64,000 nucleotides of DNA from Cytobacillus firmus (GTDB lineage Bacteria > Bacillota > Bacilli > Bacillales > Cytobacillaceae): positions 4,054,001 to 4,118,000 of the forward strand of contig NZ_CP098323.1 in the NCBI RefSeq assembly GCF_023657595.1, read 5' to 3'. The notes beneath the pieces are model-generated. The model saw only the letters and a list, made by a program, of their open reading frames with translations. It did no database searches and was not told where the DNA came from. Positions 9,451 to 44,060 of this stretch are shown one piece after another (the stretch's first letter is position 1; the number at the start of each line of letters is the position of its first letter). Made by a program: the position numbers and the translations under genes.

Positions 9451-10308
9451 GTGAAGGAATTGAAGATTTATATCGGGGCAATTGTCCTATTCTTATTATT
9501 AATTGTGATATTTAGAAAAACCATAATAAAAACGGCACCCATGTTTTTAATTGTCTTCATCCTTGTTTCTGCAGCATTTGTTTATGACAATCTTGCAGGA
9601 AGCAAGCCTCCATCTGCCGTGAACAAAATAAAATCCTGGCTTTCTGAACCAGCTGAGAAAGCCACTGCTTTTCTTGGAAACAGCACGGCTGTAATTAAGA
9701 TCAAGGAAAAAATAATTATTGATGCACCCGCAATCAATCAGTTTCCTGAGCTCCCCAGGGGATGCGAAGTCACGAGCTTATCCATGCTCCTGCAGCATGC
9801 AGGGATCAAGGCTGATAAAATGACACTTGCTAAAGAAATAAAGAAAAACCCTGAGCCTTATCGTATAGAAAACGGAAAAATCTATTTCGGACACCCGAAT
9901 GAAGGCTTCATAGGCGATATGTACTCCTTTGATAATCCTGGTCTGGGTGTTTATCATAAACCCGTAAAAGAGCTTGCGGAAAAGTACATGCCCGGCTCCA
10001 TTGAAGACCTTACCGGATCCGATTTTGAAGACTTAAAGATTCATTTGTCAGATGGCAGACCTGTATGGATAATTATCAACACAGCCTATAAACAGCTGTC
10101 TGATGACTTTTTTCAGACCTGGCATACTCCGAGCGGAAAAATTCAGATCACCTATAAAGAGCATTCAGTCCTGATAACGGGCTATGACCAGAAATACATG
10201 TACTTCAACGACCCGCTCACAGGCGAAAAAAATAAAAAAGCACCCATACCCGATTTTGAAAAAGCATGGGTGCAGATGGGAAAGCAGGCTATTACCTATG
10301 TCCCATAA
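9451..10308 (+). CDS. Membrane-anchored C39-like peptidase (YvpB-like)
   Basis: The 285-residue protein begins with two hydrophobic segments (about residues 6-21 and 29-47), then an extracellular C39-like papain-fold domain. The putative nucleophile Cys lies in ELPRGCEVTSL, and the His in YKEHSVLITGYD, giving the catalytic dyad of the YvpB/DUF3335 group. Substrates are unknown; a role in processing or sensing at the cell surface is inference. The GTG start at 9451 has only a weak ribosome binding site. A large modular repeat begins exactly at the stop codon. Confidence 0.75.
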   Translation: MKELKIYIGAIVLFLLLIVIFRKTIIKTAPMFLIVFILVSAAFVYDNLAGSKPPSAVNKIKSWLSEPAEKATAFLGNSTAVIKIKEKIIIDAPAINQFPELPRGCEVTSLSMLLQHAGIKADKMTLAKEIKKNPEPYRIENGKIYFGHPNEGFIGDMYSFDNPGLGVYHKPVKELAEKYMPGSIEDLTGSDFEDLKIHLSDGRPVWIIINTAYKQLSDDFFQTWHTPSGKIQITYKEHSVLITGYDQKYMYFNDPLTGEKNKKAPIPDFEKAWVQMGKQAITYVP

Positions 10309-10614
10309 GAAAAGCGGAAGCGCCTTGCCCACGAAGGAACGCAGACTAAGACCGCCACGTCCTGTGGCAACGTCTGCATGACCCGCATCCCGCGGGCCTC
10401 AAGCACAAGACGAACCTTCCGGAAAGGCGTCCTTTGCCTTTTTGGGAGGGGTGCCCGAAATGTGGAGGCGACTGCCCAGGGACGACAGGCATAAGACGGT
10501 TCCTGTAAGAAGGCGTTTTTCCTTCTGAAAGGAAACGACTTATGACCCCGAGTCACTAGGAGCCGCAACTAGACAAGCTTGTGACCTCGAGGGGGTAGGC
10601 GCTGGAGCTAGACA
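10309..10614 (+). repeat. Large modular intergenic repeat, copy A
   Basis: This GC-rich non-coding block starts right at the stop codon of the upstream gene with GAAAAGCGGAAGCGCC and ends GTAGGCGCTGGAGCTAGACA. Internal modules include GACTAAGACCGCCACGTCC, ATGACCCGCATCCCGCGGG, AAATGTGGAGGCGACTGCCC and ACTAGGAGCCGCAACTAGAC. The same modules recur, reordered and partly duplicated, at 22384-22762 on the other strand, and only the two ends recur at 14343-14382. I regard it as a dispersed structured repeat; no open frame in it is convincing. Confidence 0.85.
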
Positions 10615-10651
10615 ATTATCTAAATTAAGAAATTTATACATTCTTATACCT

Positions 10652-10688
10652 AAAAGCGTCCACCAGGGTATTCCTGATGGACGCTTTT
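10652..10688 (-). terminator. asnB: asnB terminator
   Basis: A long stem, AAAAGCGTCCACCAGG with CCTGATGGACGCTTTT (one mismatch), surrounds a 5-base loop and lies 3 bases beyond the asnB stop on the minus strand. Confidence 0.85.
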
Positions 10689-14089: not shown

Positions 14090-14342
14090 CTGGCTTCCTC
14101 CTTATAAATAGAAAATTGAGCGAGAAATAAGAAATGGGGAAGCGGAAAAATAATTTTTCCCTGTCATTTCATGGATCTCTGTTTGATACGGAACTCATTC
14201 CCTTAGTAGTATGAAATAAACATGGAGTTTTTATTAGAAAAATAGACAGCGCCGGCAAGAATGCCAGGTATCCATAATTCATAAGCATGCCAAAAACTCA
14301 CATAAATAGTACATTCCAAAAGCCGTTCATCCCATTGCCAGT

Positions 14343-14382
14343 TAAAAAGCGTAAGCACCCGGGGGTGCTGGAGCTAGATAAG
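14343..14382 (+). repeat. Miniature copy of the modular repeat in the metK leader
   Basis: AAAAGCGTAAGCACC joined directly to GGGTGCTGGAGCTAGATAA corresponds to the left and right ends of the large repeats at 10309 and 22384 with the whole interior missing. The two halves form a short hairpin (AGCACC / GGTGCT). It lies between the riboswitch terminator and the metK coding sequence. Confidence 0.65.
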
Positions 14383-14442: not shown

Positions 14443-14558
14443 CTCTTATCGTTCAAGGAATTACGTCCTTGCGTCAGGTTAGCACCTTTGCTGATTATTG
14501 CCTTTAGCAGGTTGCTGGGTTTCATAGGGCCTGTCCCTCCACCAGCTCGGGATAAGAG
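14443..14558 (-). ncRNA. SAM-I riboswitch (S-box)
   Basis: The outer P1 helix CTCTTATC / GATAAGAG encloses the S-box core: GAGCTGGTGGAGGGACAGGCCC, GAAACCCAGCAACC, GGTGCTAACCTGACGCAAGG. These are the invariant stretches of the SAM-I aptamer. The transcript continues into a terminator and then metK, the enzyme that makes SAM, so the logic is product feedback by premature termination. Confidence 0.97.
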
Positions 14559-15256: not shown

Positions 15257-16843
15257 ATGAACTCTGTAAGCATATCAAACGAATTGAGTGAATTATTAAA
15301 TGGCAGCAACATTCAAGTGCAATTATCCGTTCCTCAGCTTGTGGAAAAAGTTTTAAACCGCAATGAAGGGTCCCTTACTTCCACTGGGGCTGTACGCGCT
15401 ACTACAGGAAAGTATACAGGGCGTTCCCCTAAAGATAAATACATTGTTGAAGAAGCATCAAATAAAGATAAAATGGACTGGGGCAGCGTAAACCAGCCAA
15501 TCTCTGAAGAAGCATTCTCTAATCTTTATAATAAAGTAATCAATTACTTAAAAGAAAAAGAAGAAGTATTTGTTTTCAAAGGCTTCGCAGGTGCTGATAA
15601 AAAACACCGCATGCCTATCCAGGTGATCAATGAATATGCATGGCATAATCTTTTTGCACACCAGTTATTCATTCGCCCGGCAGAAGACGAGCTATTGGAT
15701 CATCAGGCAGAGTTCACAGTCATTTCTGCTCCTAATTTCAAAGCAGACCCTGCTGTTGACGGCACAAAGTCAGAAACATTCATTATCATTTCATTTGAGC
15801 GCCGCACTGTTTTAATTGGCGGAACAGAATATGCAGGTGAAATGAAAAAGTCCATCTTCTCTGTTATGAACTATATGCTTCCAGAAAACGGAATCCTTCC
15901 GATGCACTGTTCATCAAACGTTGGACGTGAAGGTGATGTGGCTTTATTCTTTGGCTTATCCGGAACAGGAAAAACAACTTTATCTGCAGATCCGAACCGC
16001 AAGCTGATCGGTGATGACGAGCATGGCTGGTCTGCGAATGGAGTCTTCAATATTGAGGGCGGATGCTACGCGAAATGCATCAACTTATCCCGTGAAAAAG
16101 AACCGCAAATTTTTGATGCAATCCGCTTTGGAGCTGTGCTGGAAAATGTGGTGGTAAACAGCGAAACTCGGGTTGCAGATTACGATGACAGCACTTTAAC
16201 TGAAAATACACGTGCGGCATACCAGCTTCAGGCCATCGATAATATCGTTGACCCAAGCATTGCCGGACACCCTAATACAATCGTATTCTTAACAGCTGAC
16301 GCATTTGGCGTATTGCCTCCAATCTCTAAACTGTCAAAAGAGCAGGCAATGTACCATTTCTTAAGCGGCTATACATCCAAGCTTGCAGGAACTGAGCGCG
16401 GCATTACATCACCTCAGGCAACGTTCTCTACATGCTTTGGATCACCTTTCCTTCCGCTTCCTGCAAATCGTTATGCTGAAATGCTAGGCGAGAAAATCGA
16501 TGAGCATAACGCAAAAGTCTTCCTTGTAAACACAGGATGGACTGGCGGAGAGTATGGAGTCGGCGAACGCATGAAGCTTGCCTACACCCGTGCTATGGTG
16601 GAAGCTGCACTAGAGGGTGAACTAAACAACGTAGAAACAATCAAGGACGAAATTTTCGGTCTGGAAATTCCTCAGCACGTGACAGGAGTGCCTGATGAAG
16701 TTCTTCAGCCAAACAAAACATGGGCAGATCAGGCTGCTTATGAAGCGAAAGCAAAAGAGCTTGCTGCTAAATTCCGTGAAAACTTCAAGAAGTTTACAAG
16801 CGTTTCTTCTGACATTGAAGAAAAAGGCGGACCAATTGCATAA
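15257..16843 (+). CDS. pckA: Phosphoenolpyruvate carboxykinase (ATP)
   Basis: The 528-residue enzyme converts oxaloacetate and ATP to phosphoenolpyruvate, the entry step of gluconeogenesis. The substrate-binding [11 protein letters not shown], the kinase-1 P-loop [12 protein letters not shown], the metal-binding GDDEHGW and the NTGWTGG region are all intact. A GGAAGGT-type site precedes the ATG. The gene is flanked by metK on the other strand and its own strong terminator, as in B. subtilis, and an operator-like site suggests control by CcpN. Confidence 0.97.
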
Positions 16844-16848
16844 TAGAG

Positions 16849-16880
16849 AAAGAATTGCCGTTTGCGCGGCAATTCTTTTT
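16849..16880 (+). terminator. pckA: pckA terminator
   Basis: The stem AGAATTGCCG / CGGCAATTCT has a 6-base loop followed by a run of T. It begins 6 bases after the pckA stop. Confidence 0.9.
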
Positions 16881-22321: not shown

Positions 22322-22350
22322 AAAAGCTGAGGTGCGGCCTCAGCTTTTTA
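22322..22350 (+). terminator. Terminator of the DUF6612 lipoprotein gene
   Basis: AAAAGCTGAGG / CCTCAGCTTTTT with a 5-base loop, placed directly after the stop codon. Confidence 0.88.
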
Positions 22351-22383: not shown

Positions 22384-22762
22384 CTGTCTAGCTTCAGCGC
22401 CTACCCCCTCGAGGTCACAAGCTTGTCTTGTTGCGGCTCCTAGGGACTCGAGACATAAGCCCTTCCAGAAGGAAAGAACACCTTCTTGCAGGGCTCGTCT
22501 TTTGCTTGAGGCCCGCAGGATGCGGGTCATGCAGACGTTGCCACAGGACAAGGAAAGCTACGGCAGCGATACATCGCACGACCGAAAGCGGCAGCTTTTG
22601 GGAGGACGTGGCGCTCTTAGTCTGCATTCCTTAAAAGGGCAGTCGCCTCCACATTTCGGTTTGTCTTGTTTCGGCTCCTAGGGACTCAGGGTCATAAGCC
22701 GTTTCCACAGGATGTGGCGCTTTTAGTCTGCGTTCATACGTGAGCAAGGCGCTTCCGCTATT
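22384..22762 (-). repeat. Large modular intergenic repeat, copy B
   Basis: Read on the minus strand it starts two bases after the stop codon of the 22763 gene with AGCGGAAGCGCCTTGC and ends GTAGGCGCTGAAGCTAGACA. It shares all main modules with copy A at 10309, but several are duplicated (AGCGCCACATCCTGTGG, GACTAAGAGCGCCACGTCC, CCTAGGAGCCG) and there is an extra segment around 22550-22610. Orientation relative to the upstream gene is the same as for copy A. Confidence 0.85.
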
Positions 22763-23092
22763 CTATTTATGTTCCTCTTCTGTCAGGATTCCCATGCTTT
22801 CAATATGCTTTCTTGCTTCATCATCTCCAAGATTATAAATCATCCCATATATTTTTTTCATTGTGTCATCATAGGCATCATTTTCACGGTCATAGTGGTA
22901 TTGAACATAAGGAACATGGGCTCTGAAAAAATTTTGCCATTCTGTTGAATAGTTCTGGTCAAAATATTCTCTTAAGGCAATAATTTCATCATCATTTGCC
23001 TCAATTTTATAATTCCAGGTGGAGTCAGTAGCACTTTGAGAAATCTCACCCGAACCAAGCGTTATATAATACGTCTTTTTATTTCCTTCCAA
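22763..23092 (-). CDS. Conserved-looking protein of unknown function
   Basis: A 109-residue soluble, acidic, Tyr-rich protein (KKTYYITLGSGEIS, WNYKIEANDDEI, YVQYHYDRENDAYDD). The N-terminus suggests a short beta-hairpin followed by helices. I do not recognise the family. A GGAAGG-like site overlaps the start region; the ATG lies after AGGATTGGAAGG-type purines. The stop codon abuts the large repeat copy B. Confidence 0.65.
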   Translation of the reverse strand: MEGNKKTYYITLGSGEISQSATDSTWNYKIEANDDEIIALREYFDQNYSTEWQNFFRAHVPYVQYHYDRENDAYDDTMKKIYGMIYNLGDDEARKHIESMGILTEEEHK

Positions 23093-26324: not shown

Positions 26325-26354
26325 AACGGGCTGAAAAAATCAGCCCGTTTTCTT
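26323..26354 (+). terminator. cls: cls terminator
   Basis: AAAACGGGCTG / CAGCCCGTTTT with a 7-base loop and a T-rich tail; the left arm overlaps the cls stop codon. Confidence 0.9.
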
Positions 26355-26360
26355 TATCGC

Positions 26361-26614
26361 AGTCTAACGGGCAGTAAGACCCCCACTTCAAGACTCAGAG
26401 AAATCAAAGGAGGATAAGTGGGGGTCTTACTGCCCGTAAAGGCCCGATTGGTGAGATACAGTGAAACTTGCCGACGCGCAGGCAGAGGCTTAGTTGAACA
26501 AATCGGGTTCGTAGTGTCGATTGATCGAAGCGCTAGCGGAGATCTTAGCGACACTAGAACGCGACTAACAATCAGTGGGGAATAAGGAAAACCCCCACTG
26601 ATTGAAGTTTCACT
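26361..26614 (-). repeat. Multi-hairpin intergenic element abutting luxS
   Basis: This non-coding element holds nested inverted repeats: a perfect 22-bp stem (26367-26388 with 26416-26437), CCCGATT/AATCGGG (26443-26449 with 26501-26507), TAGTGTCG/CGACACTA (26512-26519 with 26549-26556), a 12-bp stem (26569-26580 with 26593-26604) and AGTGAAACTT/AAGTTTCACT (26460-26469 with 26605-26614). Read on the minus strand it begins immediately after the luxS stop codon. The last hairpin, followed by T, could end luxS transcription. It looks like a dispersed repeat or decayed small mobile element. Confidence 0.8.
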
Positions 26615-27088
26615 TTATGCAAAAACCTGTTTCAAGTCATTCTTTGATTGCTGCAGCCAGAATCTCATAAGACGCTTTGCCCCATCAAGATCATGAAGCT
26701 TTGCCTGCCCGCATTGCTTCTCATTTGCCGCGGGGATTTCGGTAATTTCAACTGCATCTTCCATTGTAGCTTCCAGCAGATCAATTATTTCTTCAACTGA
26801 CGGCTCACCGCTTACCACTAAATAATAGCCGGTCTGGCAGCCCATCGGGGAAATATCAATAATGTCGAAATGGTCATATTTTTCTGCATGAGTACGGATA
26901 TTAAATGCAAGCAGATGCTCAAGTGTGTGTATGACATCCGGCTTCATCGCCTGTTTATTTGGCTGGCAGAACCGGATATCAAACTTGTTCACTAGTCCGT
27001 CACTGCCCACCTTATGGACACCGCAGTGCCTCACGTAAGGCGCTTTTACAGCATTATGATCCAGCTCGAAGCTTTCTACTGAAGGCAT
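26615..27088 (-). CDS. luxS: S-ribosylhomocysteine lyase LuxS
   Basis: The 157-residue enzyme cleaves S-ribosylhomocysteine to homocysteine and the AI-2 precursor, recycling the product of SAM-dependent methylation. The metal-binding HTLEH motif, the catalytic Cys in MGCQTGYYL and the substrate loop (DIRFCQPN) are present. I chose the ATG at 27088, 8 bases after GGGGAG. The stop codon touches the multi-hairpin element, which replaces an ordinary terminator. Confidence 0.96.
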
Positions 27089-43761: not shown

Positions 43762-43834
43762 ATAATGATTATAGAATCTCAGAAAAACGCCTTTTTATGA
43801 TTAACTGCTATTTTCTCATAGGCTTCTACAGTTT

Positions 43835-44060
43835 GGGAGTTAATCCCCCTGATTAACTCCCATTTTCTCTTGACCACTTTCATTTTGGGCGTTATTCCCC
43901 CTGATTAACTCCCTTTTTCTCTTGAGCACCTTCATTTTGGGCGTTATTCCCCCTGATTAACTCCCATTTTCTCTTGACCACTTTCATTTTGGGCGTTATT
44001 CCCGCTGATTAACTCCCTTTTTCACTTGAGCACTTTCCTTTTGGGCGTTATTCGCACTAC
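43835..44060. repeat. 52-bp tandem repeat array, about 4.3 copies
   Basis: GGG of the unit begins at 43835, 43887, 43939, 43991 and 44043, an exact 52-bp period. Each unit reads GGGCGTTATTCCCCCTGATT then AACTCCC, a T-rich stretch and TTGAGCACTTTCATTTT, with a few substitutions. Within a unit GGGAGTTAATC pairs with GATTAACTCCC, perfect in the first copy and imperfect later. No coding frame is evident. It fills the gap between two convergent genes. Confidence 0.92.

Follow-up and report, generated by a model that had tools for sequence, protein, structure and literature searches.

Modular hairpin repeats beside stop codons in Cytobacillus firmus and related Bacillaceae: probable mobile elements located at intrinsic terminators

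The PATEs of Haloquadratum (PMC3119063) are palindrome-associated relatives of IS200/IS605 that lack a transposase; they are too short to encode one, carry palindromes near their ends, are shortened by core deletion, receive nested insertions and lack a fixed target duplication. REP/REPIN sequences are palindromic, intergenic and often located within 15 nt of stop codons, and the REP elements of Escherichia coli at this distance stall ribosomes (PMC12306157). The BOX element of Streptococcus pneumoniae is a modular composite repeat of variable length (PMC3049150), group IIC introns are inserted at intrinsic terminators (PMC4424553), and Bacillaceae-1 RNA is among the candidate structured RNAs of Weinberg et al. 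(2010; PMC2864571). Here, two modular repeats, copies A and B, located in a window of 64,000 nucleotides of the genome of the soil bacterium Cytobacillus firmus, were compared with these systems. The analyses indicated that both copies are probably non-autonomous, PATE-like nested-hairpin elements residing at the T-tracts of terminators and moved by IS200/IS605-type transposition.

As noted in the preliminary description, each copy starts right after the stop codon of the adjacent gene. In copy A (10309..10650, plus strand), the TAA of the preceding gene (10306..10308, plus strand), which occurs also in the empty orthologous site, is followed by GAAA, after which the head AGCGGAAGCGCC begins at 10313; the tail GGCGCTGGAGCTAGACA reaches 10614, and the element proper extends to about 10650, the whole element thus comprising 302 nt from AGCG to GACA, the GAAA leader and a 3' tail of approximately 36 nt. 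It contains a Bacillaceae-1 (RF01690) module (10330..10396, plus strand), the hairpin module M1 of about 60 nt (10400..10453, plus strand), whose structure shows covariation, and module Z (10454..10576, plus strand), which is gained or lost as a single block at other orthologous sites. Beyond its 3' end, an intrinsic terminator composed of A-run, hairpin and T-run and common to the convergent genes is kept (10652..10688). Copy B (22385..22762, minus strand) measures 375 nt from AGCG to GACA, with a 3' tail on to about 22351: the TAG of the minus-strand gene (22765-22763) is followed by AAT and by the head from 22759, and GACA ends at 22385. Its Bacillaceae-1 module (22512..22636, minus strand) carries a 59-nt hairpin, module X, inside the first (RTCCT) loop, a second, partial Bacillaceae-1 match lies at 22687-22742, and an intrinsic terminator is retained on the 3' side (22322..22350). 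The two copies, which lie in opposite orientation in the window, have common blocks of 68-104 nt with 78-87% identity, and the element ends are TAAGAAAAGCG on the head side and CTTTCTTATCTTTT on the tail side.

Other sites of the window were also related to this family. A third, collapsed copy (14342..14380, plus strand) has only the outer stem left, followed by a terminator hairpin that separates it from a SAM riboswitch on the opposite strand (14443-14558). An empty site was located at 16838..16860 (plus strand), where a relative (L261) has a 118-nt copy between stop codon and terminator. In addition, approximately five tandem units of 52 nt were observed at 43798-44057; every unit contains an imperfect palindrome (GGGAGTTAATC...GATTAACTCCC), and they are not copies of the A/B element.

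The A/B family is represented by about 90 copies per genome in the host and its relatives. In the host genome (4.98 Mb), the head search (15-mer, up to 2 mismatches) returned 89 matches, compared to 6 with the reversed control, while the tail returned 61 matches and its control none. RF01690 was detected in most same-genus genomes, with a maximum of 69 per genome, and the exact tail 30-mer was found in Cytobacillus species, Aquibacillus, Ornithinibacillus, Lentibacillus, Gracilibacillus and Bacillus infantis; copy A showed no match in plasmid and phage collections. Complete copies had lengths of approximately 58, 118, 178, 240, 302, 360 and 418 nt, and these steps of about 60 nt arise because hairpin modules, including Bacillaceae-1, lie within one another and, from species to species, have been added, removed or swapped without a change of site. 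The 58-nt form is a single hairpin, the 118-nt form is the same hairpin with an extra 60-nt hairpin in its loop, and in the longer forms Bacillaceae-1, module X (within RTCCT loops) and module Z are added or substituted. In a census of 138 clusters, the modules occurred in many different orders, and some clusters were chimeras with the bcr1-like family described below, in which module Z is inverted. Module Z occurred alone in 20 clusters of the host genome and may represent a third mobile family. At L308 (G016:C4:356000-362500), a 312-nt unit is repeated in tandem about 15 times, and every repeat contains two A/B-family elements, one of them with Bacillaceae-1.

Copies were collected genome-wide, and their distance and orientation to the nearest stop codon were measured using genes called by a simple coding-potential script, in which stops are reliable and starts are rough. 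Where a sense gene precedes the head, the distance from stop codon to AGCG was 1-9 nt in 26 of 34 host copies and in 41 of 62 copies of other genomes. Compared to uniform placement within the same intergenic gap, copies at up to 17 nt from the sense stop were strongly overrepresented both in the host (21 of 25 copies against 8.6 expected, P ~1e-9) and in other genomes (44 of 53 against 16.8, P ~1e-19). The abutment to stop codons therefore holds genome-wide, and the placement and orientation of the copies, whose randomness would have contradicted the preliminary description, were non-random. The same orientation relative to the adjacent gene was confirmed for copies A and B but is not a general feature, since for about half of the copies the gene preceding the 5' end is transcribed away from the element; in these cases the head is located near the Shine-Dalgarno sequence of that gene or further upstream. 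Of 88 such copies between co-directional genes, 28 had the head next to the Shine-Dalgarno sequence, and in the remainder it was further away.

Alignment of the 3' side of the elements showed a conserved tail ending in CTTTCTTATCTTTT, followed by an A-run and a hairpin, so that in the opposite-strand reading the element end is flush with the T-tract of a terminator. In a strict search for intrinsic terminators, 36% of 180 copies had one on the opposite strand at 30-65 nt beyond GACA, compared to a rate of 6.7% at random intergenic points; the distances peaked sharply at 36-48 nt, a position flush with the element end. Of 57 convergent cases, 35 had a terminator there on one strand or the other. 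This strict search found a 3'-end hairpin in less than half of the copies, and those abutting a Shine-Dalgarno sequence were often without one. The idea that the mobiliser targets terminators was well supported: terminator hairpins adjoin the 3' end at a sharply defined distance, and empty sites fall between stop codon and terminator. By contrast, replacement of the terminator by the element, also suggested earlier, found no support, since in A, B and most convergent cases the original terminator is retained beyond the element, displaced 60-420 nt further from the stop codon.

Taken together, the distances and the retained hairpins demonstrate, as far as sequence comparison allows, terminator targeting with a fixed polarity. 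The element is inserted into the T-tract of an intrinsic terminator with its 3' end facing that terminator, so that the opposite strand shows hairpin, T-run and element in this order. Where two genes converge, the T-run of one terminator adjoins, or is the complement of, the stop codon of the other gene (TAAAA), and the 5' end lands there. The abutment to stop codons is explained by this arrangement, since the complement of the targeted T-tract, which belongs to the terminator of the opposite gene, includes or adjoins the stop codon. Alternatively, insertion might be random and selection might keep the copies in the harmless gaps between stop codon and terminator; selection against insertion into genes is indeed plausible, as just 4 of the 89 head matches were inside predicted genes. 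Selection alone, though, predicts symmetry, whereas 48 of 58 heads in convergent pairs lay no more than 17 nt from the sense stop, against 10 of 58 tail ends at this distance from the other stop. This one-sided polarity makes an origin without targeting very improbable. Targeting of a replication strand was also considered as the cause of orientation, as 69 copies were head-on and 20 co-directional, but 75% of the genes are on the leading strand and gene-symmetric regions split merely 18:10, leaving terminator polarity as the simpler cause.

The comparison with relatives lacking the element, which had been suggested as a check, revealed orthologous empty sites for both copies. At the copy A locus of relative L261, the sequence CCCATAA-AAAATAGCGTCCACC comprises stop codon, A-run and terminator hairpin and contains no element, and in empty copy B sites the stop codon, which is TAG next to the element (22763..22765, minus strand), is a TAA that continues into the A-run of the terminator. 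The sites at L311, L313 and L314 were also empty. In the nearest relative (97-98% identical) both the A and the B site were empty; among about 26 same-genus loci corresponding to the A site and about 30 corresponding to the B site, the element was absent in most, while the others held forms of 67 to 302 nt and 57 to 375 nt, respectively. Such orthologous empty sites demonstrate, at the level of alignments, true insertions and hence mobility, while precise excision may explain single empty sites in some lineages. Orthologous comparisons, which include reciprocal pairs and were ascertained by element-bearing loci, yielded an empty site in 22 cases, copies that differed in length in 32 and copies of equal length in 17.

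The same comparisons were informative about how the elements change. In G4826102 versus L219, the flanks and the copy-specific variants agreed, while CCCCCGA was swapped for a whole Bacillaceae-1 module, and in G1105270 versus L253 module Z was present or absent as a block. Assembly by module duplication, as originally envisaged, hence appears to be part of the process and is incomplete as an account of it, because between species modules were also inserted, deleted and swapped in place at the same site. These allele pairs demonstrate, by sequence comparison, a turnover of modules in place, for which gene conversion between copies or insertion and deletion of hairpins would both fit. Bacillaceae-1-type modules would be passengers that move between copies, either through conversion or through insertion and deletion of a hairpin within a loop.

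Among the 118-nt copies (88 distinct sequences), 97% of pair cells were standard pairs, and both sides were altered in 16 of 31 pairs, compared to a maximum of 9 in 200 shuffles, which supports, short of proof given that kinship of copies inflates such counts, the maintenance of hairpins by compensatory change. This covariation, together with the very stable computed fold of copy A (-125.5 kcal/mol, z -3.7), the head at 3-9 nt from stop codons, the REP precedent (PMC12306157) and the match to RF01690 (81.8 bits for the core of copy A and 69.8 bits for that of copy B, against a gathering cut-off of 35), would agree with copies being mainly functional RNAs, in which case Bacillaceae-1 would serve as a regulatory RNA and the hairpins next to the stop codon would act on the upstream gene as a 3' UTR structure, for instance by REP-like ribosome stalling. 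By analogy, a stable hairpin 3-9 nt after the stop codon is expected to slow ribosomes. We consider it rather unlikely that such a function is the main explanation, because the orientation relative to genes is not conserved, most relatives have empty sites, the preferred folding strand is sense for M1 and antisense for Bacillaceae-1, and Bacillaceae-1 is not free-standing, with 31 of 32 module-bearing clusters containing other element modules. The asymmetry between strands in folding was rejected as a sign of transcription, since it is contradictory between modules. For RF01690 modules (e.g., 10330-10396), the antisense strand folded better in 47 of 49, and its two hairpin loops each show GGA, as CsrA-binding hairpins do; on the basis of these predicted folds, the strand of RF01690 was possibly misassigned.

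The junctions and the gene content of the genomes were examined in relation to the mobiliser. Clean junctions had overlaps varying from 0 to 6 nt, with no apparent fixed target duplication and with near-constant letters (TTA/TAA); those of the copy B locus were read by eye, the automated overlap being noisy there. Such overlaps do not fix the enzyme class. Some junctions had a short duplication of TA, TAA or TTA, which leaves room for another transposase class. In accordance with the latter, the elements could be classical MITEs moved by a DDE transposase with a short TA/TAA target duplication, given that these overlaps occur at the cleanest junctions and that a weak subterminal inverted repeat (ATAAGAAA / CTTTCTTAT) is present. 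This origin is nevertheless unlikely, since overlap length varies while the letters hardly do, as for a fixed target or end motif, the ends are asymmetric and the polarity toward the terminator is fixed.

A retro-mechanism, either target-primed reverse transcription at the T-tract or trans-mobilisation by the machinery of group IIC introns, would account for the T-rich 3' end joined to an A-run and for a preference for intrinsic terminators, which these introns target (PMC4424553), and group II reverse transcriptases are encoded in many same-genus genomes. The group II reverse transcriptase (TIGR04416) is, however, absent from the host genome and from several element-rich relatives, a search of A and B for group II introns returned nothing at E values as high as 1, and an unsystematic look noticed no graded 5' truncation, all of which render this route quite unlikely.

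The moving enzyme would rather be a Y1 transposase of the IS200/IS605 type acting on single-stranded hairpin DNA, as for PATEs. This mechanism is named mainly because an IS200-like element has the same target and polarity. The element, found in a same-genus genome (G008), is 757 bp long and encodes a Y1 transposase of 176 aa; all ten copies examined (L298-L307), including one relative in G020, lay within the T-run of a terminator, 4-8 nt past its hairpin. Its ends differ in sequence from those of the A/B element, while target and polarity agree; the comparison of ends with IS200/IS605 covers this G008 element. A/B-type modules beside one G008 IS200 gene were discarded as a chance neighbour, being present at one among nine IS copies. 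Against this mechanism, there were no matches to PF01797 in the host genome, the Y1 transposase was likewise missing from several genomes of the genus in which Bacillaceae-1 copies exceed 30, and the search for an autonomous element with matching ends yielded one orphan right end and no transposase between matching ends. Inspection by eye revealed no tracking of copy number by the presence of Y1 or of group II reverse transcriptase.

A second family of the host is bounded by TTTAT. In the window, this bcr1-like element (TTTATCGCAGTC...GTTTCACTTTAT; 26353..26618, plus strand) lies directly after the T-tract of a terminator and its 3' end overlaps the stop codon of the opposite gene. Among 41 copies examined, a terminator was placed right before the 5' TTTAT in 15 (strict search) and the 3' end overlapped the opposite gene's stop codon in 14. 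The geometry of this family is the mirror image of that of the A/B family. Its consensus had no match in Bacillus cereus plasmids, and its likeness to bcr1 of the Bacillus cereus group (PMC6542083), compared by description alone, lies in the TTTAT boundaries, from which the A/B family differs by its other ends and mirror orientation.

On a wider scale, several seemingly unrelated Bacillaceae repeat families (A/B, bcr1-like and module Z) and Bacillaceae-1 RNA could tentatively be viewed as one system of independently mobile hairpin modules, which would insert into hairpins, either at terminator T-tracts or in each other's loops, via single-stranded DNA and an IS200-type transposase, with combinatorial assembly in place. 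At the level of the A/B family, a catalogued orphan RNA family is recast as a module of mobile DNA, the abutment of small repeats to stop codons is explained by terminator targeting with fixed polarity, and the alleles of individual sites, which range from empty through minimal to large, form a natural series suited to direct tests of module gain and loss and of the effect of a 3' hairpin on expression.

Compared to the described systems, the A/B family resembles REP/REPIN in its palindromes and position, but it is longer and modular, and the host has no RAYT or Y1 gene. While BOX grows by tandem boxB units, A/B grows by nested hairpins and module swaps (compared by description), and the likeness to group IIC introns ends at the insertion site, as A/B has neither intron domains nor a reverse transcriptase. 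Bacillaceae-1 RNA corresponds to the 67-nt core of A and B, far above the family cut-off, with the difference that it is here one exchangeable module of larger mobile elements. Like PATEs, the A/B elements are too short for a transposase (58-418 nt), have palindromes near the ends in the form of nested hairpins, are shortened in the core and receive nested insertions, while their junctions show overlaps of 0-6 nt with near-constant letters; they differ in ends that are unmatched to the IS200/IS605 element compared (G008), and in combinatorial modules and terminator targeting, which are absent from the available part of the PATE description (PMC3119063). Small non-autonomous hairpin elements are known; the new features here are that terminators are targeted, that elements are assembled from modules and that Bacillaceae-1 is reassigned, the A/B element being one that works like a PATE and is not classed as one.
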